From assembly GCA_033819885.1 (NCBI GenBank), contig JAQYUZ010000080.1, positions 1-25,458 on the forward strand: 25,458 bases of DNA, read 5' to 3'. Source of the DNA: Microbotryomycetes sp. JL201 (Eukaryota > Basidiomycota > Microbotryomycetes). The position numbers and the translations under genes were made by a program. Under the pieces are notes generated by a model, which did not search any database, had not been told where the DNA came from, and saw only the letters and a program-made list of their open reading frames with translations. This document shows, in pieces, positions 715 through 25,275 of the stretch (the stretch's first letter is position 1; every line of letters starts with the position of its first letter).

Positions 715-788
715 GGTTTAGTGGTGTAGTTGGTTATCACGCACCCTTCACACGGGTGAGGTCCTGGGTTCGAATCCCTGCTGAATCA
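715..788 (+). tRNA. tRNA-Val (anticodon CAC)
   Basis: The cloverleaf folds with a 7-bp acceptor stem (715-721 with 781-787, allowing two G-U pairs). The D arm is 724-740, the anticodon stem is CACCC/GGGTG (742-746, 754-758), and the loop TTCACAC places CAC at 34-36, so it decodes GUG valine. The T arm is 764-780 with a canonical B box (GGTTCGAATCC, 768-778). Base 788 is the A discriminator. One flaw is visible: the second pair of the T stem is T765-T779, a mismatch. There is no intron. The gene lies directly beside the truncated end of the LINE fragment. Confidence 0.93.
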
Positions 789-1229: not shown

Positions 1230-4200
1230 ATGGCATATGTCTACAAGGTGCGTCCGTTGTCTCGCCGGGGAGACTACGCGCTGACAAATCTCCGTGTTTC
1301 TGCAATTGCTAGCGTGGTGAGTGCGCGCGCGCTCGCATCAATGTCACAGTGAATTTAGTTGATCAACTGATTATGTCGCGACAGACGGCCGGCGCGAGCT
1401 TGTCGCGTTCGACAAGATGTGAGTCTTTGCCCGGCGGTTGCTCGTCGCGTCAAGCCAACGCTCTCGTCGCGCAGCACGGCTCGTATCAACAAGTTATGCT
1501 ACGGTTTGGATGTGAATCATCTGGAACCGATCGAGGTACGTACAGTGGCTGTGATATACTGCGCAGGACAGCTGAGCGTCCCGTTCGCATCCCTTCGCCT
1601 CGCTTCAGATCACCAAGCGCGTTATTGCCGGCGTCTATCAAGGTGTGACCACTGTCGAGCTCGACAATCTTGCTGCCGAGACAGCGGCAGCCATGACTAC
1701 GCGCCATCCAGTAAGCCGTCGCGAACCCATTTCCTCGAACTTGGCTCAAACATCGCTCACCCACAGGACTACGCCATCTTGGCCGCCCGCATTGCCATCA
1801 GCAATCTCCACAAGGAGACGCGCAAGACTTTTTCACATGTAATTGATGATCTATACACCTACGGTAAGCCATCTGCTGATGCGCGAATCACCGAGATACC
1901 TGGAGCTCACGCGACCCATGCCAGTCAACCCCAAGAATGGTCGACCTTCGAGCATGATCTCAAAGGATACTTATGAGGTCATCATGGCGAACGCAGACCG
2001 CCTGAACAGCAGCGTCATTTACGATCGCGACTTCGGCTACGTAAGTCTCTCGGCCTGTGCAGATGCGCACCAAATGAATTCGGATTCCTGCGCCAGAATT
2101 ACTTCGGTTTCAAGACATTGGAGCGCTCTTACCTGCTTCGAATAAACGGCAAGGTTGCTGAACGCCCTCAGCACATGCTTATGCGCGTGGCTGTCGGCAT
2201 TCACGGATCCGACATCGACCGCGTGATCGAGTCGTACAATTACATGTCAGAGCGCTACTTTACTCATGCGTCGCCAACTCTTTTCAATGCCGGTACGCCT
2301 CATCCTCAGCTCTCATCATGCTTCCTCGTGACCATGAAGGAGGACTCGATCGAGGGCATTTACGACACACTCAAGACCTGCGCGCTCATCTCCAAGACTG
2401 CTGGAGGCATTGGCTTGAGCATCCACAACATTCGCGCAACTGGCTCGTACATTGCGGGTACGAATGGCTACTCGAACGGTATCATTCCAATGCTTCGCGT
2501 CTACAACAATACGGCGCGATACGTCGACCAAGGAGGCAACAAGCGGCCCGGTGCATTTGCGATCTACCTCGAGCCATGGCATGCCGACATTTTCGACTTC
2601 TTGGACCTGCGCAAAAACCATGGCAAGGAAGAAGTTCGAGCGCGCGATTTGTTCTTCGCGCTGTGGATCCCCGATCTCTTCATGGAGCGAGTAGAGGAAG
2701 CCGGGGACTGGCCATTGTTCTGTCCGGCGGAGGCTCCTGGTCTCCACGAGGTTTACGGCGACGATTTCAAAGAACTTTTCACCAAGTACGAGAAGGAGGG
2801 CCGCGCCAAGAAGACGATTCCCGCTCAGAAACTCTGGTACGCGATCTTGGAGGCTCAAGTTGAGACCGGTAACCCTTTCATGCTCTACAAGGACGCTGCC
2901 AATAGTACGTTGAGGCCCATTCACACGAGAATTGCTTGAGCCTGATCATTCTGCGCATCTGCAGCGAAATCCAACCAAAAGAATCTGGGAACAATCAAAT
3001 CGTCAAACCTTTGCACCGAAATTATAGAGTATTCGGCCCCAGATGAGTGGTGAGTGCTGACCGTGCTTCGCATTTGCAACACAATCCTGACCGCGAGGCT
3101 GGTTAGTGCCGTGTGCAACTTGGCGTCCATTGCGCTGCCCACGTTTATCAAAAATGGAGCTTATGATTTCAAAAAACTTCACGAAGTTGTCAAGGTACGT
3201 GGTGAGATGTCCTGAATTCGGCCGTTTGGAATGCCTGACTGGTCCCGCAGGTTGTTGCCTTCAATCTGAATCGCATCATCGACGTGAACTTCTACCCTGT
3301 TCAAGAAGCCAAGAACTCGAACATGCGCCACCGACCAATCGGTATCGGCGTTCAAGGTTTGGCGGATGTCTTCATGGCTATGCGACTCCCCTTCGATTCG
3401 CCTGATGCCCGCCGTCTCAACTTGCAAATATTCGAGACAATCTATCATGCCGCAATCGAATCATCGTGTGACATTGCTCGAGACTACGCCGCTGCTCATC
3501 CTGGAGAGGATGGCTGGTACCCGTCTTACAAGGCAAACGGAGGCTGTCCCGCAAGCCAAGGCCTGCTGCAGTACGACCTCTGGAATGTCACGCCTACCGA
3601 TCTTTGGGACTGGACAGAGCTCAAGCGCAAGGTCGCAGCTCATGGCTTACGCAACTCCCTCGTCTGCGCGCCAATGCCCACCGCATCCACGAGTCAAATT
3701 CTCGGTTTCAACGAGTGCTTTGAGCCCTACACATCGTGCGTTTCATGTGTGGTGCCTGGAGCGATAAGCTGACGCCCAAACCTTCCTGCAGAAATATTTA
3801 TTCTCGTCGCGTGCTCGCCGGAGAGTTCCAGATCGTCAACCCATGGCTGCTGCGTGACCTCGTCGATCGCGGACTTTGGAATGACAACATGAAGAACACA
3901 ATTATCGCCCATAACGGCTCAATTCAGAGCAGTCAGTCGATGGCCGAAACGAGCCTCAGAAGTCGGCAATCTAACGCTCCTGCCCCGACTTATAGTCCCC
4001 GGCATGCCAGCCGACTTGAAAGCGATCTACAAAACTGTATGGGAAATCTCGCAAAAGACCATTTTGGACCTTGCTGCGGACCGAGTGCGTAATTGTTGAG
4101 TTCGCGCCCTACATTTTCACTGCTGACCGCTTCTGTGTCTATCAGGGCGCATTCATTGACCAGAGTCAATCGCTCAACATTCACCTGTCGAGCCCCACAA

Positions 4201-4859
4201 TGGCTCAGCTGACTTCAATGCATTTCTACGGCTGGAAGAAGGGTTTGAAGACCGGAATGGTCAGTTCACGGACAGCTCATTGATGCGTGTTCACTGAGAC
4301 CTTATGCCCCATACAGTACTATCTCCGGACCAGGGCCGCCGTCGGCGCCATCAAGTTCACCGTAGACCAAGCGACGCTTGGTGAGTTGTCCTTGGCGGTC
4401 ACGGGATCGCGGAGCTGATGCGCATTTCGCCTCAGATCAAGCTAAGGCTGCAAACAAGAAGCCCACTCAGAGCACTTCAAGCCGGCCGGTGGTCTCGGCT
4501 CCGAGCCCGATCAGAGACATTACGAACGGTGTCGCCAAGGCCTCACTCAGCAACGCGAACCCACTCTCGAAGCGGTTCGATGCCTCATCGAACTCACCTT
4601 CCCCAGCGCAGTCGCCGGCCCCGTCTACGCCCATTCTTCCAACCGCACCGAACGCTGCTTCCGCCAGCAAGTCTGCAGCTGATGACGAGGGAGTCTCGTT
4701 TGAGGAAGCAGTCCGCCGCCGCGAAGAGCGCGAGCTCGAGCAAGCAAAGCTGATGTGCTCACTCGAGAATAAGGAAGCCGTGAGTGCGATGTGGTAAAAC
4801 CCGTCATGCTCTCATTGAAATTTCGCCCTACCTGACAGTGCTTGATGTGCTCCGGATGA
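1230..4859 (+). CDS. RNR1: Ribonucleoside-diphosphate reductase large subunit
   Basis: Class Ia ribonucleotide reductase large (R1) subunit, which reduces NDPs to dNDPs in the cytosol together with the R2 radical subunit. Exons: 1230-1247, 1313-1316, 1385-1418, 1475-1535, 1609-1710, 1767-1863, 1925-2040, 2097-2904, 2965-3049, 3107-3194, 3251-3735, 3792-3931, 3996-4084, 4146-4259, 4317-4380, 4436-4779, 4839-4859. They sum to 2670 nt and encode 889 residues with no frame break. The N-terminal ATP cone begins MAYVYKRDGRRE. Active-site residues are present: Cys219 (HPQLSSCFL), Asn428/Cys430/Glu432 ([11 protein letters not shown]) and Cys445 ([10 protein letters not shown]). The C-terminal shuttle pair ends the protein as CLMCSG and sits on its own 21-nt last exon. 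Exon 2 is only 4 nt. Residue 442 is an extra Cys three residues before Cys445, encoded across an intron. About 100 residues before the C-terminus form a Ser/Pro/Ala-rich linker. MCB boxes upstream suggest S-phase control. Confidence 0.97.
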
Positions 4860-6957: not shown

Positions 6958-8438
6958 TTAATGCGTCTTCTTGACGGCTCTTCGCAGTAAGCGCCGCCGC
7001 CTACTTTGAGCATGCGTGCCCGACGGTCCCAGCGCTGCAGCGCCTGCAGTGCCATCGAGGTAGACGTACATGTAGCCAACTGGAAGCGTAGCGTCAGCGA
7101 GACATAATTTCAGCTAAATTGCGGTCGAGACGGTTCTCCCAGAATGAAAAAGACCTACATGAATCGACTTTACCGCCAGCATAGGCCGTGTCGACTTCCC
7201 AGTCGCCGGTCGACAGCCACTCGAATCCGGACGGGGTCTCTCCCCCAATCACGACCTCTGGAAGCCATTGCTGGTCGAGCCGAGACTCCACCTCGATTCT
7301 CTCGACTTCGACGATCTCACCGTCCAGGTCCGAATCCTCAAGCGAATCGTCTTCCGCTAGCCTGGCTGCCCCTTTCCAGCTCTGCTCAAGGAACGGTTTG
7401 ACAACCGACAGAGATTCGACCATGAAAGCTTGAGCGACAGGGTGACCAGCGAGAAAGACGGCTTCGCCACCGACAAGCATCACGAGGCGCCAGGGGACGT
7501 AGGGCGCAGCGAGCACGAGAGCGAGAGCAGAAACCATGGACAACTGCAGCAGGACGAGACTGACTCGCTCATCGCGCCAGGTGAGGTAAGGCACAAATAG
7601 CCGCAAGAAATCGGTCAGGTCGGAGACGCGGCCCATCATGATTTGAATGTTTTGCTGTGCCGACGACAAAGGGCGAGGTCAGCAAATGGTATGGCGAGAC
7701 TGTGATAAGCCAGCCCACCATGTTCGCAAGATAGCTGACGGAGGTGGGTCAGCCGGTCACCGGTTCTCACGAGATGAATCTGGACGTACTCGACAGAGTC
7801 CTCGGCCGGAGGTGCACTGGACAAGGCAACGCCTTCCCTTGCGTCTTTACCCGTGGAGGAAGGCTGATGACGAGCAGCATGCGTGCTGAGCAAGGTTGCA
7901 GCGAGCGCAAGGCCAGGAACGGCCAAGATCAAATTCGGATTGTAGCCTGCGCAGGTAGGGAAGGCGAGTCAGATGGGCCGGGTCTGGAAGAAGAGGCCCG
8001 ACTCGCAGATAAGCGCCCAAGCACACGCGAAGAATAACGTTTTGGACGGATCTTGCCACAGCAGCACGGCTTCTATGGCGTCTTGGGCGACAAAGACCGG
8101 GCCCGATTTTTGCACAAATCTGATCAATGGTGACGTCAACTTCTGTCGGCCTTTATGCGATCCAAACGAGCCAAACTGACTTGCGAAAGTTGACGGATGT
8201 CTGCTGCAGTGATAAACGCTCCTTGTCGCCTGCACGCGATCCGCACTCGCACCCGGTCAGTCTTCGTGTGTATGCTCGACAGCGTTGGTTGTCATTTACC
8301 TGGACCTGCACCAATTGCAGCGCTCTTGACCAAGCTTGCCATGATGAGCTCGTCGACAGCGGGCACGAGGCCGGCGAGGCGGGACGCCGGCATTGCAGGC
8401 GCTGCACCCGAGCTCACGCCGGTATTGACAGCGGTCAT
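6958..8438 (-). CDS. Peroxin of the Pex24/Pex28-32 family (peroxisomal membrane protein)
   Basis: Integral peroxisomal membrane protein of the fungal Pex24p family, which controls peroxisome size, number and contact with other membranes. Exons (minus): 8438-8300, 8229-8181, 8119-8007, 7946-7771, 7654-7174, 7079-6958; 1080 nt, 359 residues. Family hallmarks are FVAQDAIEAVLLWQDPSKTL followed by a hydrophobic span (about residues 84-115) with CYNPNLILAVPGLALA. Next come QNIQIMMGRVSDLTDFL and a second paired hydrophobic region of about 50 residues starting LVLLQLSMVSALALVLAAPY. A C-terminal WEVDTAYAG..GYMYVYLDG resembles the end of a DysF-type domain. The tail is basic (RRRRLLRRAVKKTH). Intron 7947-8006 uses a GC donor (GCGAGT); no GT donor keeps the frame. 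Intron 7655-7770 is long (116 nt) with alternative acceptors. The exact orthologue (Pex24, 28, 30 or 32) is unclear. Confidence 0.78.
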
Positions 8439-13799: not shown

Positions 13800-14845
13800 C
13801 TAAGCTCGCTTGAGCAACCTGCGCGCGCCATGAGTCAGTCCTTGGATGGGACCGCGGTCAAAAGAGTCATCCTGACCAATTCAATGTCAAATCAATGTTG
13901 TGTTGGGATTTTGCTGGATGTCACGTCACTTGTCAATTGGTGACTTCGCCAGCATTGTGCTTGAAGAGCTCTCACCTGAGACAGAGTAGCAGCTAACTTC
14001 GCGATTGGCGATTGTCGCCAGGTCCAGCGCAGATATTATGTCCTGAACCGTGGCATGTCCCTCAAGGTCGCTTTTGTTGCCGAGTACCTGAGGAATCATA
14101 TACACGTTCAAAGACAACAAAACAGCTGAGTCTGGCGAGACAACTCACGAGCAGGGGAATCCCAAGCAGCTGAGGCTTCTCAAGCAATGCGTGAAGTTCC
14201 GCACCCGCAGCTGAGAACGTGTCTTTGTCGGCCGAGTCCACCAAGAACCTGGTGGGTGGCGCATGATCAGCGCTTGACCCATTTTGGTAATGACGAGCGA
14301 GGCCCACACTATGGCGGCAACACCCCGACAGTATCTCTCCCACATTGATCGAAACCGAGGCTGGCCACCGATGTCTGTAGAGAGGCCGTCATGGGAGGGT
14401 TCACTATACCTTTTCCCGAAGCACATACCCCACAGCTTGAAAGTCTGGGCAGCATAGCGTCATGTCTCAGTCAATAGGATGCTGCGACAATGTGAATTCA
14501 TGCGACGCACAACATTGCCCTTGGTCACCTTTCTTAGGTTGAAGCCGCTGTCGTGAAGCTTCGAATTAGCTTGAGGGCAGGCGCGCCCATGAAATCTGCT
14601 AGACTAGAACACTTGCACAGTGGGGATCATCGAGCTGTTGAATTCTCCTGAAGCCAGCACATTGACCAGCGAAGTCTGTATCAGAGGACCGAGGCGTCAG
14701 ATCTCGGGCGGCAAGCCGTCCACATGAGCGGCAAACCTGATTGACGAAGACGTACCTTGCCAGAATTCTGCAATCCAATGAGCGCAATATCCGCATGCTT
14801 GCTGAAGAAGAGGCCGCGCAACCAATTCAGGAATGCCTGAAACAT
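13800..14845 (-). CDS. ARL8: ARL8-type small GTPase (Arf-like)
   Basis: Arf-family GTPase of the ARL8 group, which in animals links lysosomes to kinesin. The group is missing from budding yeast. Exons (minus): 14845-14756, 14675-14617, 14547-14511, 14444-14429, 14374-14308, 14248-14149, 14087-13976, 13913-13877, 13818-13800; 537 nt, 178 residues (human 186). The start [14 protein letters not shown] is an amphipathic helix lacking Gly2, as in ARL8, so no N-myristoylation is expected. Nucleotide motifs are GLQNSGKTS (24-32), switch [43 protein letters not shown] (126-130) and CYSVSAK. The C-terminus [13 protein letters not shown] matches the family. Exon 4 is 16 nt and exon 9 is 19 nt. Intron 14548-14616 uses a GC donor (GCAAGT); the overlapping GT would break the frame. 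Confidence 0.93.
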
Positions 14846-16783: not shown

Positions 16784-19576
16784 ATGCCGCGAAAGGGAGG
16801 CGTCTTACAAGATGCGCATCGTCACAATATCCCCAACGACGCGCTAGCTCGCTCCAACAAGACACAACAACAGCGCACGCCAACAAAGGTCGCGGCGATC
16901 GCAGCTGCTAATCGCGCTCGCGCCGCCGCCGTCGCAGCAGCAGCAGCGGCAGCCTCGCCACGAGATTCTGCAGCTCAAGACCTTGTCCAGCAAGCTCAAG
17001 CAGCACCCCTCGTCGTCGAGTCGCAGCGGTACGAAGAATGGATGAAGATCGCGACCGACAATGTGAGTCGGATCGCATGCTGTGGCGCGGCGAGCTCGCC
17101 TTGCGTCAAGCTTCTTGGTATTGACATGCACGGAACCTGTCGCTTTCTCTTTCGTCTCACTGCAGAAAATCACGTCGACAAACACCTGGAACTTGGCGCT
17201 GATCGATTACTTCCACGACATGACCTTGTTGCGCAACGGAGACGACAACTCGATCAATTTCCAAAAGGCATCCTGCACACTCGACGGCTGTGTCAAGATT
17301 TGGACGAGCCGAGTCGACAGTGTGGCGACAGAGACGGGTAAACTCCTCAGCGGCTTGGCAGACGACCGTAAGCATATTCTTGGCCATTATCAGCGAAAAT
17401 TGATTCAACTCACCAATTGATGAAACGTAAGCAGATGGTTCAGCAGAAACAGCACAACAAGACGATGACGTTGACGATGATGAAGGCGAAGATGAGGAAG
17501 GAAGAGACAAAAAGGCAAGAAAACGAGTAAGCAGGCTTCCACGCTGGCGAGCTACATTCGTCTTTCTCATCGTTGGATGTGCCCTTAGACCGCGCGTCAG
17601 ACTGCCACTTTAGCAGACTCGTTCAGCAAGGTGAAGGCCAGAGCCCTGGACCTCGAATTCACAGTCGATCCTCTCTTCAAAAAGACGAGTGCTGACTTCG
17701 ACGAAGGCGGAGCCGGCGGGATTCTGATGAACCACCTTGGATGTGACGGCACAATGCGGGTTGTTTTCGATGCCGGAGACGCAAAACTGTCGCAGGACGA
17801 GGATGTAGATGACCCGGAAGGCGACGACAGTGTTGCTTCACTCGACTTGTCTGCGCTAGCTGGTGCGTTGTACGCGTACGCAAGGTTCGTCAGCAGGAGG
17901 CTGACTTTTCCCTTCAGCTAATTTTCTCTCAAACGGCCTCGAGGCTGTGGAAGGCATGTCTCTTTGCCCATCACTTGCAACATTCAGATTCTCTCTCGAG
18001 ACGAAGATCGACCTTGATCTACTTGGCTCTGCAAACGACTCTGATGAGGAAGAGGGCGACAATGGGCCAGCTGGTCGGCTCTCACCCGCACATTTACCGT
18101 TACCTATGCTGCCTGATTACGACGATGATGCAAATCGTGAATTTGGAGGAGAGGGCTACATGGCTGATGCTGCGGAGACGGACTTCTTCGCAGCTGATGG
18201 ACGTGACGCCCTGGCATCCGAAGATTCGCTCTCTTTCGCTGCCGGCGATGCGCAACATTTCGACACGCGTCAAGTCGGGCCCAACCATGTCGTTTCAGCC
18301 GATGGAAGCAGCGATCAGATGCTTGACTATTTCGACCGAAAGCTCCACAAAAACTGGGCAGGACCGGAACATTGGAAAATGCGCAGAGCTCCGAAAAAGC
18401 GCAAGTTCGGGGATCTTCGATAGATACTTCAATCCTTTTTTTGTGCTGACATGTGTTCCTGAACACTCAGCGGAAGACAGGCCTGCGCAGAAGCAGCAGA
18501 AGGAGAAGATTCCGTTTACCATAGACTTTTCAGCTCCTCTACAGCTTTCTGCCGAGGACTTGTTCGCTCCTGCGACCTCATCAACGATCAGGCTCTCGAA
18601 GAAACCCGGGTCAAAGACGACCAAGGGTGGACCGACGCCGCGCGACGATTTATTCATGTTACCGGACGATTGCCGATTCACAAGCGCGAGTCTGCTTCGG
18701 TTGTTCCTCAAGCCCAAGGTTTCGGTGAGCCACAAGGCTATGTAGTTGAAGCGGCGGAACTAACATCCTGCAACAGTTGCGAATGCGAAAACGTTTGACA
18801 GCTGCGCCCGTTGCAGAGCTGTGGGGTGGAGCTGTTATTGACGAGGATCTGGGAGGTGAAGACCTGGCTATGCAGGTCGACTATGACGACGATGGTCCGT
18901 ACATGGTGTTCTATGATCTGTGCTGGATTGTCCTCGGCTGACGCGCTGCAAAATCAGTGGTTGACGACTTTGTGGTTCCCTTCGATACGCAAGTTTTGAA
19001 TGACGGAGACGAGCACAGCAGTGCTTTGGACGTAGATGACGAAACCGGCGTGACGAGACATGAAGACATGGACGACGTCTTAGCCGAAACGCAAGGGCAG
19101 CTGAAACGTGTCAAAGTCGAAAACATCAATTATGCAAAGCGAGCCAAACGTGTCGACGTGAAGAAGCTGAAAGAGAGGATTTGGAGAGAGCTCGAAGACG
19201 TGGCCATCCCCGTCGACGATGTGAGTGTTGCTTTCTGCCTCAAGTCAGAACGAGCGTCAGCGGTTTCGTGGATCTTACAAGACCATCTCAACAGTTGCCG
19301 GCGACATCGAGCTACTTACCCCAGCGCGGAGACAGCGAGCAGCCACTTGTGCCGGTCGTGACTGGCCTGCGCAAGGCGTATCCGAAAGACAAGATGGACG
19401 AGATTTCTACGTCATACTGCTTCATTTGTCTGCTTCATCTGGCCAACGAGAAGGGTCTGCGGATCCAAACTCCTGCTGTGGAAGAGGTCGACGCTCAAGG
19501 TCTCGATGACGGCCTGCAGCTGCGAAAGTCTGTCGGCGGACTCGAGCGGCTGCGCGTTTTGCGCGCACTTGCATAG
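16784..19576 (+). CDS. BRN1: Condensin complex subunit 2 (kleisin, Barren/CAP-H)
   Basis: Kleisin subunit that bridges Smc2 and Smc4 in condensin and is needed for mitotic chromosome compaction. Exons: 16784-17062, 17166-17367, 17435-17526, 17589-17862, 17918-18400, 18471-18724, 18777-18894, 18958-19220, 19295-19576; 2247 nt, 748 residues, the normal family length. The conserved N-terminal block reads YEEWMKIATDN, then NTWNLALIDYFHDMTLLRN and NSINFQKASCTLDGCVKIWT continuing SRVDSVATETGKLL. Middle motifs include ARALDLEFTVDPLFKKTSAD, MRVVFDAGDAKLS and KIPFTIDF. The C-terminal winged-helix region has YAKRAKRVDVKKLKERIWRE and SYCFICLLHLANEKGL. Intron 18401-18470 has a GC donor (GCAAGT), which is required to reach the frame of KKPEDRPAQK. 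ATG 16784 was chosen for its context; ATG 16772, in the same frame, is the alternative. Confidence 0.96.
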
Positions 19577-20613: not shown

Positions 20614-22629
20614 ATGAAGGTCGCCGTCGTCGGCGCAGGCACGGCCGGCCTTGGCGCAGCCTGGGCGCTCAACAAGTACTCTGAGCACGAGGTACACCTT
20701 CTCGAGGCCGACACGCGTTGGGGTGGCCATGCCAACACGGTCAAGTTCACGCGTCCGCAAGGCTCGGCCGCCGACGCAGGCGACCGGCCGCACAATGTCG
20801 ACACGGGATTCATCGTGTGAGTCGTGGATGTAAGCAGCTCACCCTGCTGCGCGAGCACTTGGTGTCGCGGAGGACCGCTCTGACGTCGATCGGTGGTGTT
20901 GACTGATGATCGCACAGATTCAACAAGGTCACATATCCCAATTTTCTACAATTCTTGCATCTCGAAAACATACAGTACATTGCGAGTGACATGTCGTTCG
21001 CAGTCACACGCGATCGCGGCGCGTTCGAGTGGTCGGGCTCGGGCCTCGGCAGTCTGTTTGCGCAGCGGATCAATTTGCTCAACCCGGCACACTGGCGAAT
21101 GGTCTGGGACATTGTGCGCTTCAATTCAGCAGCGCTCGATGTCTTGCGTCAAGGCGAATCGGGCGAAAGCATAGGAGAATACGTCGCAAGGCACGGATAC
21201 TCTGCGGCGTTCGTTGACAACTATTTGCTTGTGAGTAATCTCGGCAGACCAGGACAGTATAGCAGCGGACCTGTCTGACGAATGTTCCGTGCCGCACAGC
21301 CCATGACCGCCGCTATCTGGTCGACGCCACCAGACAAGGCCGCGCTTGACTTTCCCGCTTCGACGTTAATCAGGTTCATGCACAATCATCATTTGATGCA
21401 GATCCTCGGTCGCCCGACCTGGCTCACAGTCAAAAACGGTTCGCATTCCTACGTCAACGCGATACTTTCTCAAATTCCAGCCGAACGATTGCAAAAGGGC
21501 GTTCGCATTCACTCGGCTCGCAATGTCAATGACAAGGTCGTTCTTGAGGCGGAAAGCGGAGAGAAGCTCGAGTTTGATCACGTCGTGTTTGCGTGTCACG
21601 CCGACACCACTCTCAAGATCCTCGAGCGAGGGCAAGCCGTCACGTCGGAGGAACGCGAAATCCTTGGCGGCTTTGAATTCTCCAAGAACCGAGCGATCTT
21701 GCACGCCGACACAGAGGCGAGCGGATATCACTCCATGCTCGAAGCTGCTCGATCTCACGTGATACTCTCTGCAGATGATGCCTAAATTGCGGTCTACCTG
21801 GTCCGCATGGAACTACCTGACGTTTACTGATGGCAAAAAAGCGAACGTAGATCGCGTATCACTGTGAGCCGCCAAAACCGATTCTTCCCTACCCAGTGCG
21901 CTGACAATGCGCCACATGCTCGTAGCACTTATTGGATGAATCTGTTGCAGTCGATCCCGGAAGGCGAGTACGGGCCAGTGCTCGTTACGCTTAACCCGCC
22001 ATTCGAGCCAAGGCCAGGGCTCCTCGTTGACGAGTACTGGTATCAGCATCCCTTGTTCACTGAACGGGTGAGAGCGGCTTCTCAAGATGTCTTAACGATC
22101 CTGACGACTGCCTTTTTTCGTGCCCAAAGAGCGTGCAGTCTCAGGCAGAGCTTCCACGGATTCAAAACCGTCGTGCCATGACGTTTATCGGTGCATGGAC
22201 TAAGTATGGATTCGTATGTTGATTTTATCCCACGTTTGTCTTCGGTGCCGGGCTGACGCGAGATGACAGCACGAAGACGGATTTGCGTCCGGGCTGCGAG
22301 TCGCTAAAGAGTACCTCAATGCCGACCTGCCGTTCGATGTCCGTCACGCTGAAAGGGACCTGCCGTCCGGTTTCCCAGACCAGGCTATGTCGTTCGTCGT
22401 GAATGTGCTCGAGCAGCTCCGGCGTATGCTTGAGATACCATTCGCCGGGGTGTTGTTTGCGCTCACGGTTGCCCTCACTGCGCTAGAGCTCGGTCTGAGC
22501 GCTTCGGCTGGCGCCATGAACGCACTTGGGATTGACAATAAGCGCACGTTGCGCACGAAATCGACAGTCTCGCGGGTATCTACGTTCTGGAGAAGTACGC
22601 AGGTGACTGAAAACAGAAAGGAGAAGTGA
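20614..22629 (+). CDS. FAD-dependent amine-oxidase-type protein
   Basis: Flavoprotein of the amine oxidase/phytoene desaturase fold, in the subgroup of 'NAD/FAD-binding' proteins often found near cyclopropane-fatty-acid synthase genes; the substrate is unknown. Exons: 20614-20816, 20918-21230, 21300-21716, 21775-21863, 21926-22067, 22130-22213, 22270-22629; 1608 nt, 535 residues. The Rossmann motif is at the N-terminus (MKVAVVGAGTAGLGAAWAL, then LLEADTRWGGHANTV). Family motifs follow: HNVDTGFIVFNKVTYPNF, TAAIWSTPPDKAALDFPAST, GRPTWLTVKNGSHSYV, FDHVVFACHAD, PKLRSTWSAWNYL and TFIGAWTKYGFHEDGFASGL. A C-terminal hydrophobic stretch (FAGVLFALTVALTALELG) may anchor it to a membrane. Intron 21717-21774 needs a GC donor (GCGAGC); reading through ends the protein early. 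An upstream in-frame ATG at 20512 is the alternative start. Confidence 0.87.
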
Positions 22630-22991
22630 CTGATTGTAGTGATCGGTGTTGTAATGGGTTCACTGGGCTGCACACCGTTAGTCGCGAAATAGCCGCATGC
22701 TGTGCGGCATTTTCTTAATGCATGTTTCTTTACCTCTGTGCTTGTCAATGATATGCGCACGCGCTCAAGATGTATCAAAACGACGTCGTGCTTGCTCTAT
22801 GCAATACGCCGCAGCCCGCGTTATGGCTGGCAGGTCACGTGCACGATGACGTTGGCTGTGGAAGGCGGGCGGGAGCTCGAGCGCGCTTTTTGTGCGACCA
22901 ACTTGCGCGCATTGAGCGGCTAAGCGATCGACCTTTTCGACCTTTTCGCCGCTCGCCTCATCTCCATATTCCTCATCTTTTGCACCGAACG
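22630..22991. promoter_or_regulatory. Intergenic region and promoter of the ornithine monooxygenase gene
   Basis: There is no gene. The region holds a small perfect hairpin (GCCGCA, 5-base loop, TGCGGC) at about 22692-22708, soon after the flavoprotein stop. A CACGTG palindrome lies at about 22836-22841, and a tandem CGACCTTTT repeat (about 22929-22947) lies 45-65 bp before the ATG. I found no GATAA/GATAG motif, the site used by GATA-type iron repressors in other fungi, in these 362 bases. Confidence 0.45.
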
Positions 22992-25275
22992 ATGACGACA
23001 GACACAACACCTTGTCCCGAAGACGTGTACGACATCGTGGGCGTCGGTTTTGGTCCGGCGGCTCTTGCGCTCGCGATCGCGCTCGTCGAGCCCGATGCAG
23101 CGACATCGGCGAAGGCTTATTCACAGTTGGGCGGTCTGCAGCAAGCGCTAGAGCAGCTGCCGCTGTCGCCGACCGCTTCCAGCTCGACACATGCAGGCGC
23201 GAGCGCCGACGGTCGAGCTTCGGCCGCTGCGACGCCCTGCACGAGACCATTGCGCGCTTGCTTTATTGAAAAGCACGACCGCTTCAGGTGGCATCCAGGA
23301 ATGATGCTCGACGGCTCTGTCATGCAAATATGTATGTCTCTTTTGTCCAGCCAATCGCGATCGAGCTATTCCTCGAGTGGCGACGAGACGGGCTCCGATC
23401 GTAGATCGCCTCGCTGACAAGAATAGGACTTGATGACACGATCTGCAGCATTCCTCAAGGATCTTGCAACCCTTCGCAACCCGCAATCGGCCTATACTTT
23501 TCTATGCTACCTCGCCTCATTCTCGCCCTCCAGGCTAGTTTCGTTTATTTCGCGCGAAACCTTTACGCCAACCCGCAGGGAGTTTGTGTGTCGCACATCT
23601 CATGTCTATTTCAAGGTACAATCCGTCTGACCAAGACATTTCTACAGAGCGATTATCTTGCATGGGCCGCGCGCAAGGTGGAGCAAGATTTGCTTTCCCA
23701 AGGTGGCGAGATCGGGTACGGCGAGCAAGTTCTAGCAGTCGAGGGCGTCTTCAACGGGGCAAATGCAGATGTGCGCTTGCTGAAAGTTACATCTCGCTTT
23801 TTGGCCACCGGCGAAATTCGCGAGCGTTTCACGCGCAACATTGTCATGTCAACCGGAGGCGCTCCCAGGATTCCTTCACAGCTCAAAACTGCAGATCTGG
23901 CGCGCACAGGAAGGATTGTCCATACTTCTGCCTTCCTAGAAGCTGTGCCGCGCTTGTTTGGCGCTTTGTGTCATCAGTTACCCTCGGAACGACCCTTCCG
24001 CGTGGCGGTCATCGGTGCAGGCCAGGTCAGCGTGTGCGCTCTCGCCCAAAAAAACTTGCGCAGACTGACCGGTGTCTCGCATTCTCGGGATCGCTGCTCC
24101 ACAGTCTGCTGCAGAAACCTTCCTCGCAGCTCGCAACGAGCTGGCAAACAAGCTACCGATCGACCCCCTACACCGACCCGAGGTGCAGCTGTTTATTCGC
24201 GGCGCGACACTCTTGCCGGCAGACGACTCTGCATCTACGAATGAAGTATTTGATCCTGGCATGTCACAGGCTGTGTACGACTTGACGCCCGAGGGGCGCA
24301 CAAAAATGCTCGAGGCTGCCAAGGCGACCAATTATTCTGTCGCTAATCCCAACACCCTCGCCAACGTAAGCCTGAGACATGGTGCTGTGAATCAGTGCGC
24401 TGACAACATGCCTTTTGAAAGATCTACGAGACTTTGTACGCCCAGCAAGTTGAGATGGACATTGCTCTTCGGGACGAGGGTTCGACGCGAGGACTCCACC
24501 ATGACCCGCGTCTAGTCATTAGGCCATTCAGCGACGTCTCGGGTGCCGAACACTTGCAAAGTCCCGAGGAACACATCAAACTGCGAATTTTGAATAATCT
24601 CACGTCGGTCGAGACTTTCGAAGATTTTGACCTGATCATTTGTGCGACTGGGTACGTCGCTCTGCTCATTCGAGGCAGAATCTCCAGCTCATACGACGCT
24701 TGATGTGCAGATATGATCGGCAAGGCTGGAAACCGCTTTTGTTCACGCCGTCGAGTAGCTCTGTGAACACCGTGCCACTCTCAGACCTGTTCGTGAGCCG
24801 GGAAGAACCCTTTGCACAACTCAACGAAGTCTTCGGCACAACCTCTTTGGCCGCTTTCAATCATTCCCGGGAAAATCAGGCCTTCAGCTCGAGATCGGAC
24901 TCGACCGACTCGTCGCAGCCAGATTCTCCACTCTTATCTGCCCGAGACTCACGAGGAGGATCAAGATGCTCGTCGCCGCCGACATCCCGCAGCTCGTCAT
25001 CGAAGGAATATATCCCCGATTTTCCTGTCGCCAAGAACTACCGGTTGCAGCTTCCAGCAACCACCTCTTCCGGTGCAAATTTCAAGCCGACTGTGTGGCT
25101 GCAAGGCAGCTGCGAGGCGACACATGGGATATCTGACTCTTTGCTGAGGTGCGCCACCATCATGGCTCAATTTGGACTTGGCTGACCCTTTGAGGCTACA
25201 TTCTACAGCGTTCTTGCTGTAAGATCAGGTGAAGTTGCTTCCGCCATCAGACGAGAAGGCTGGCTTGCCGCGTAG
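22992..25275 (+). CDS. L-ornithine N5-monooxygenase (siderophore biosynthesis)
   Basis: SidA/Sid1-type flavin monooxygenase that hydroxylates L-ornithine with NADPH and O2, the first committed step of hydroxamate siderophore synthesis. Exons: 22992-23331, 23449-23585, 23648-24025, 24105-24365, 24422-24651, 24711-25148, 25209-25275; 1851 nt, 616 residues. Motifs: FAD site DIVGVGFGPAALALA (14-28); WHPGMMLDGSVMQISFLKDL; NPQSAYTFLCYLASFSP; NADPH site VAVIGAGQSAAETFLAAR; NYSVANP; ATGYDRQGWKPLL; and VWLQGSCEATHGISDSLLSV near the end. The last intron (25149-25208) is supported because it restores the family ending LLSVLAVRSGE; without it the protein stops at 25185 with an odd tail. Two Ser/Ala-rich insertions (about residues 35-85 and one of about 60 residues before the C-terminal motif) make it longer than the usual roughly 500 residues. 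Confidence 0.95.

Follow-up and report, generated by a model that had tools for sequence, protein, structure and literature searches.

A predicted 4-nt coding microexon in the ribonucleotide reductase large-subunit gene RNR1 of a basidiomycete

Introduction

Several systems with exons of a few nucleotides have been described. In Fusarium, a 1-nt exon was reported for the P450 gene CYP621A (PMC12940212). P450 genes of Phanerochaete chrysosporium contain microexons, the shortest being 6 bp according to the available account (PMC1184071), and a regulated 20-nt exon was described in Trichoderma (PMC11121469). Outside the fungi, exon 2 of human MPC1 is reported to be constitutive with a length of 4 bp (PMC9929638), and the plant genes APC11 and VPS55 are described with 1-nt microexons (PMC8831610). 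In C. elegans, PRP-40, a protein of the U1 particle, was reported as needed for microexon splicing (PMC8378409, PMC11463390). In two further articles the term microexon occurs a single time, in both cases as a parameter of read mapping (PMC4014442, PMC3990503). Among the literature matches listed, none concerned an RNR1 microexon; the one match for ribonucleotide reductase together with microexons was a herpesvirus host-cell transcriptome.

Here we examine RNR1 of Microbotryomycetes sp. JL201 within a window of 25,458 nt, i.e., the whole stretch of DNA that was analysed. An initial annotation of this DNA had proposed that the second exon of RNR1 consists of the four bases CGTG. We consider this exon a well-supported prediction; exons this tiny are rare but known already.

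Methods

The RNR1 exons were assigned manually on the DNA, with yeast Rnr1 as a guide, and were then joined by script. Splice sites and intron lengths were compared with 29 introns: 14 from RNR1 (introns 3-16), seven from the ARL8-like gene and eight from the condensin subunit 2 gene. These were hand-called by the same kind of homology reasoning as the introns flanking the microexon. An earlier splice-site model was trained on 14 introns, a later one on 29; all comparison values are leave-one-out. In-frame splice patterns were enumerated using GT or GC donors, AG acceptors and introns of at least 31 nt.

The relatives comprised 115 loci, i.e., 35 viral contigs and the best 80 of 592 prokaryote contigs. 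An N-terminal query matched 110 of the 115 loci, which yielded 97 distinct segments, 96 of them spanning residues 7-8; all are viral or prokaryotic. To derive the null expectation, the 137-nt interval between exons 1 and 3 was subjected to dinucleotide shuffling 100,000 times, with the outer six bases fixed at either end.

The RNR1 gene and its surroundings

The 17 exons of RNR1 (Table 1) join to 2670 nt, i.e., 889 codons plus stop, with zero internal stops. The unbroken 889-codon frame that had been claimed for a transcript including CGTG was thereby reproduced. In the protein, Pfam PF03477, PF00317 and PF02867 score above cut-off, representing the ATP-cone, the all-alpha and the barrel domains. 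PDB chain 1zyz_A, which we take to be yeast Rnr1, aligns with 1316 bits from residue 3 to the very last residue (YVYKRDGR to CSG), and chain 3hnc_A, presumably human RRM1, with 1276 bits. The N-terminal YVYK is the same as in 1zyz_A. The C-terminal cysteine pair is present as well, CLMCSG being aligned with CEMCSG of 1zyz_A. Domain content and C-terminal cysteines characterize the predicted product as the large subunit of a class I ribonucleotide reductase with an ATP-cone.

Table 1. Positions of the predicted RNR1 features, of two rival introns and of other features in the window
Feature	Positions	Strand	Description
tRNA-Val	715-788		in the initial 5 kb of the window, as is RNR1
RNR1, whole coding region	1230-4859	+	17 exons, 16 introns, 889 codons, C-terminus CLMCSG
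RNR1 exon 1	1230-1247	+	ATGGCATATGTCTACAAG, ATG GCA TAT GTC TAC AAG, i.e., MAYVYK; ends in phase 0
RNR1 intron 1	1248-1312	+	65 nt; donor GTGCGT; CTGAC at 1281-1285; acceptor GCTAG
RNR1 exon 2 (predicted microexon)	1313-1316	+	CGTG, 4 nt; Arg7 and first base of Asp8 (KRDG)
RNR1 intron 2	1317-1384	+	68 nt; donor GTGAGT; CTGAT at 1367-1371; acceptor CGACAG
RNR1 exon 3	1385-1418	+	starts AC GGC CGG CGC GAG, i.e., (D)GRRE
Rival single intron	1321-1384	+	64 nt; donor GTGCGC; 1248-1320 kept as coding
Rival single intron	1252-1384	+	133 nt; donor GTCCGT; product MAYVYKVHGRRE
Pex24p-like peroxisomal membrane protein, fragment	7094-7678	-	Pfam PF06398
ARL8-like small GTPase gene	13867-14845	-	8 exons, 175 residues; Pfam Arf, 146.9 bits
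16-nt exon of the ARL8-like gene	14429-14444	-	ACTTTCAAGCTGTGGG; hand-called
Condensin complex subunit 2 gene	17030-19576	+	Pfam Cnd2 on 17067-17420; nine hand-called exons, starting from an internal codon
Amine-oxidase-like FAD enzyme, fragment	21279-21785	+	Pfam PF01593, 22.8 bits
L-ornithine/L-lysine monooxygenase-like gene, start	22752-23417	+	Pfam PF13434; type used for siderophores

For the small GTPase gene the name ARL8 is our assumption. Its 16-nt exon, located in the same window, was counted as support for the RNR1 microexon, and tiny exons may be common in the JL201 genome. Two of the 29 hand-called comparison introns are apparent GC-AG introns with the donor GCAAGT, one in the ARL8-like gene (14548-14616, minus strand) and one in the condensin subunit 2 gene (18401-18470, plus strand).

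Reading frame and the KRDG motif

Reading frame, motif, splice-site strings and intron sizes of the microexon model are read directly from the DNA. Exon 1 ends at 1247 and AC GGC starts at 1385, as annotated initially. The yeast-type chain 1zyz_A reads YVYKRDGRKE, and therefore CGTG is needed between the two. Exactly these four bases were found where they had been placed, with CTGAC and GCTAG on the left and GTGAGT on the right. With its 4 nt CGTG belongs to the ultra-short microexons (at most 15 nt). Frame and conserved motif both need it, and it is bordered by the AG and the GT of two plausible introns, the acceptor at 1312 being the weak point. We consider it highly probable that RNR1 carries CGTG as a constitutive coding microexon between two ordinary short GT-AG introns.

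The enumeration yielded 64 in-frame solutions: 10 with a single intron (six starting from the ATG at 1230, four from that at 1237) and 54 with two introns (ATG at 1230). A single one of the 64, the combination of introns 1248-1312 and 1317-1384, results in YKRDGRRE. RDG emerges in four two-intron solutions, each time via the same CGTG exon, and KRDG of the ATP-cone is retained solely in the one just mentioned; none of the 10 single-intron joins keeps it. The initial annotation had further argued that a single intron shifts the frame. This is correct for an intron of 137 nt covering 1248-1384, which was rejected because the frameshift leads to a stop at codon 31. It is incorrect for the 10 other single-intron joins, all of which are in frame.

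Five models were compared with respect to the ATP-cone. The model with the 4-nt exon scored 56.7 bits vs. 44.4 to 46.7 bits for the four alternatives. When fitted to the 110 RNR1 relatives it gave the single best fit in 108 and shared the best fit in two, with mean losses of 5.3 to 7.1 bits for the alternatives. Thus, the 4-nt reading, originally based on inspection of the sequence, is the sole solution with the expected peptide, the best by ATP-cone score and by fit to relatives, and has introns of normal size. Another pattern, combining a GC donor with an exon of 10 nt, was rejected with an ATP-cone score of 44.4 bits vs. 56.7; its path score of 27.2 was second to 34.9, a ranking that is indicative only as the patterns differ in intron number.

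The motif is highly conserved. Of the 96 distinct viral and prokaryotic segments, 95 have R and one has S at residue 7; at residue 8, 81 have D, 14 have N and one has S. The offset of 3 to the E. coli numbering agrees with the alignment to chain 2r1r_A, which we take to be E. coli ribonucleotide reductase (query 4-632, chain 7-639). In the class Ia enzyme of E. coli KRDG occupies positions 9-12 in the β-hairpin of the cone, and K9 and R10 are reported to touch the phosphates of dATP/ATP (PMC11447812). As the R of KRDG contacts nucleotide phosphates there, the RNR1 microexon would encode a nucleotide-sensing residue.

In four viral contigs (L025, L027, L028, L029) the RNR1 matches extend over about 3.5-3.8 kb instead of some 2.3 kb, a pattern suggestive of interruption by inteins or introns.

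Splice sites and intron lengths

The 29 comparison introns have lengths of 52 to 103 nt (median 61). RNR1 introns 1 and 2 are inside this range, and the compound interval is longer than every one of the 29. The donors at 1248 and 1317 score 10.0 and 10.7, respectively, the leave-one-out range being 0.7 to 10.2. In the 14-intron model the donor at 1317 ranks first and that at 1248 second of the GT/GC sites in 1230-1418; GTGAGT had rightly been called a strong donor. The acceptor at 1384 scores 7.1 (29-intron model). The acceptor GCTAG at 1312 scores 0.5, slightly under the lowest of the 29 leave-one-out acceptors (0.7); in the 14-intron model, about 35% of the AG dinucleotides across the window reach at least its score. 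Within the sequence, the strongest argument against the 4-nt exon is the weakness of this acceptor. A stronger-looking acceptor is present inside intron 2 at 1349 (score 5.3); joining 1247 to 1350 places a TGA immediately 3' of AAG. The RNR1 acceptors are CAG in 13 of 16 introns and TAG in three, intron 1 being among the latter. In the branch-like sequences CTGAC and CTGAT the A is located 28 nt before the end of intron 1 and 14 nt before the end of intron 2, respectively.

The most serious rival is a single intron from 1321 to 1384, with bases 1248-1320 as coding sequence. It leaves the frame open, has a normal size, a donor within the leave-one-out range (GTGCGC, 4.8) and the strong acceptor (7.1), and an automatic gene finder could well pick such a model. 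Nevertheless we consider it very unlikely: it breaks KRDG, in which R and D/N are each kept in 95 of 96 relatives, it reduces the ATP-cone score to 45.2 bits vs. 56.7, and it costs on average 7.1 bits over the 110 relatives, being better in none and tied in one. Further, the two top-ranked donors at 1317 and 1248 would be left idle.

An even slimmer chance has to be assigned to a single intron from 1252 to 1384 or to a stwintron over the same span that is removed in two nested steps. The in-frame product, MAYVYKVHGRRE, exchanges the conserved R-D for V-H, scores 46.7 bits vs. 56.7 for the ATP-cone and is a better fit in none of the 110 relatives (tied in two), and with 133 nt the intron would be longer than all 29 comparison introns. 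Its donor GTCCGT (4.7) is a hexamer used once among the 29 introns, in CND2. Twin introns as such are known in fungi (PMC12403724, PMC6616335). The RNR1 interval does not behave as a stwintron: excision of 1248-1384 leads to the stop at codon 31, excision of 1252-1384 keeps the frame and loses R-D.

Practically negligible is the likelihood of a 1-nt exon, i.e., the C at 1313 followed by a donor GTGGTG at 1314. A 1-nt exon has been reported in a fungus (PMC12940212), and the product, MAYVYKHGRRE, is in frame. Yet the donor scores -7.9 vs. 10.7 for the one located three bases downstream, one residue of the conserved motif is removed, the ATP-cone score falls to 45.0 bits vs. 56.7, and the fit is better in none of 110 relatives.

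Chance expectation

A 4-nt exon coding for R-D or R-N between AG and GT was present in 1,757 of the 100,000 shuffles. This number dropped to 504 when both introns were required to have at least 50 nt, and to 52 when, in addition, neither site was allowed to score below the poorest leave-one-out value among the 14 training introns. With both sites matching the observed quality not a single case remained (0 of 100,000). On the other hand, 7,381 shuffles contained some in-frame exon of 1-22 nt whose sites and introns were acceptable. Small in-frame exons are thus not unusual by chance, and therefore the case for CGTG rests on the match to motif and peptide.

These numbers also bear on the view that a sequencing error or a decayed gene makes the microexon unnecessary. 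The window sequence derives from one source, and this is what can be said for such a view. The remaining 889-codon frame is intact, C-terminal cysteines included. Correcting a single base would not bring back R together with D because all 64 solutions use the acceptor at 1384 and a TGA at 1360-1362 closes the DGRRE frame on its upstream side. The sequence would need to lack several bases, and the position of CGTG between splice sites would then be coincidental, as in the 52 of 100,000 shuffles. We consider error or decay a very remote prospect.

Splicing and origin of the two introns

Short introns like these usually have their two ends paired with each other across the intron itself. RNR1 introns 1 and 2 would each be recognised by such intron definition and would be taken out sequentially, one after the other, since the 3'-site machinery of intron 1 and U1 bound to intron 2 can hardly fit together on four bases. 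Either order of removal should result in the same product because each excision spares the sites of the other intron. An RNA fold bridging the exon was rejected, as 191 of 200 shuffled versions of the 189-nt region were equally or more stable (z +1.62).

All failures end early. The stop is at codon 31 when exon 2 is skipped, at codon 54 when intron 1 is retained, at codon 55 when intron 2 is retained and at codon 41 when both are retained. With stops at codons 31-55 mis-spliced RNR1 RNA should be non-productive, and it would decay. As failure at either step leads to an early stop in the RNA for an essential enzyme, inclusion of the exon should be near complete. Conceivably the exon is a regulated checkpoint at which unproductive splicing and mRNA decay could lower RNR1 and the supply of dNTPs: the weak acceptor at 1312 would make inclusion sensitive to the state of splicing, and the stops are within 55 codons. 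We regard such a checkpoint as improbable.

An origin of introns 1 and 2 by mutual duplication was rejected (score 12 vs. a null mean of 11.4, p 0.44). RNR1 introns searched against the rest of the window gave solely 12-base matches at E ≤0.1. In four Cryptococcus species the available account reports no clear case of intron sliding in 28,256 introns (PMC2740785). Accordingly, two introns four bases apart may most simply reflect two separate gains.

Discussion

If real, RNR1 exon 2 ranks with the smallest exons that have been proposed for fungal-type genes, and it cuts the nucleotide-sensing motif of an enzyme required by dividing cells. Gene finders would probably mis-annotate the start of RNR1 by using an in-frame rival. 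The locus is a natural test of how an intron-defining spliceosome handles an exon too small for simultaneous recognition from two sides, and also of how two introns end up four bases apart.

CYP621A of Fusarium shares several properties with RNR1: both are fungal, both have a tiny exon in a conserved protein motif, and both exons were found because direct joining of the neighbouring exons breaks the frame. The compound intervals are 139 nt in CYP621A and 137 nt in RNR1, and for CYP621A an intronless relative is described as a length marker (PMC12940212). They differ in exon length, 1 vs. 4 nt, and in kind, a P450 vs. an essential housekeeping enzyme. The CYP621A exon is reported to be confirmed by reads and to be present in 20 orthologues, whereas the RNR1 exon is predicted from one genomic sequence.

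In plants, the ultra-short exons of APC11 and VPS55 were, as described, overlooked by annotation with the result of altered predicted N-termini, and the VPS55 donors are GTRAGT; RNR1 has such a donor in intron 2 and would probably be mis-annotated in a similar way. Unlike the RNR1 exon, they are reported as conserved across many land plants and as supported by RNA-seq and RT-PCR (PMC8831610). The P450 genes of P. chrysosporium resemble RNR1 in having compact introns (45-55 bp in the published description) with tiny exons in between; there the exons are larger and belong to the P450 family (PMC1184071).

Spliceosomal twin introns, too, are two short introns in one interval that are removed stepwise. 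According to the accounts at hand they leave zero exon bases, whereas RNR1 must keep four (PMC6616335, PMC12403724). Finally, exon 2 of human MPC1 is like RNR1 exon 2 in length, 4 nt and thus not a multiple of three, and its inclusion is reported as constitutive. MPC1 has long flanking introns, and exon definition involving a 67-nt upstream region was reported (PMC9929638). For RNR1, whose introns 1 and 2 measure some 65 nt each, intron definition is likelier.
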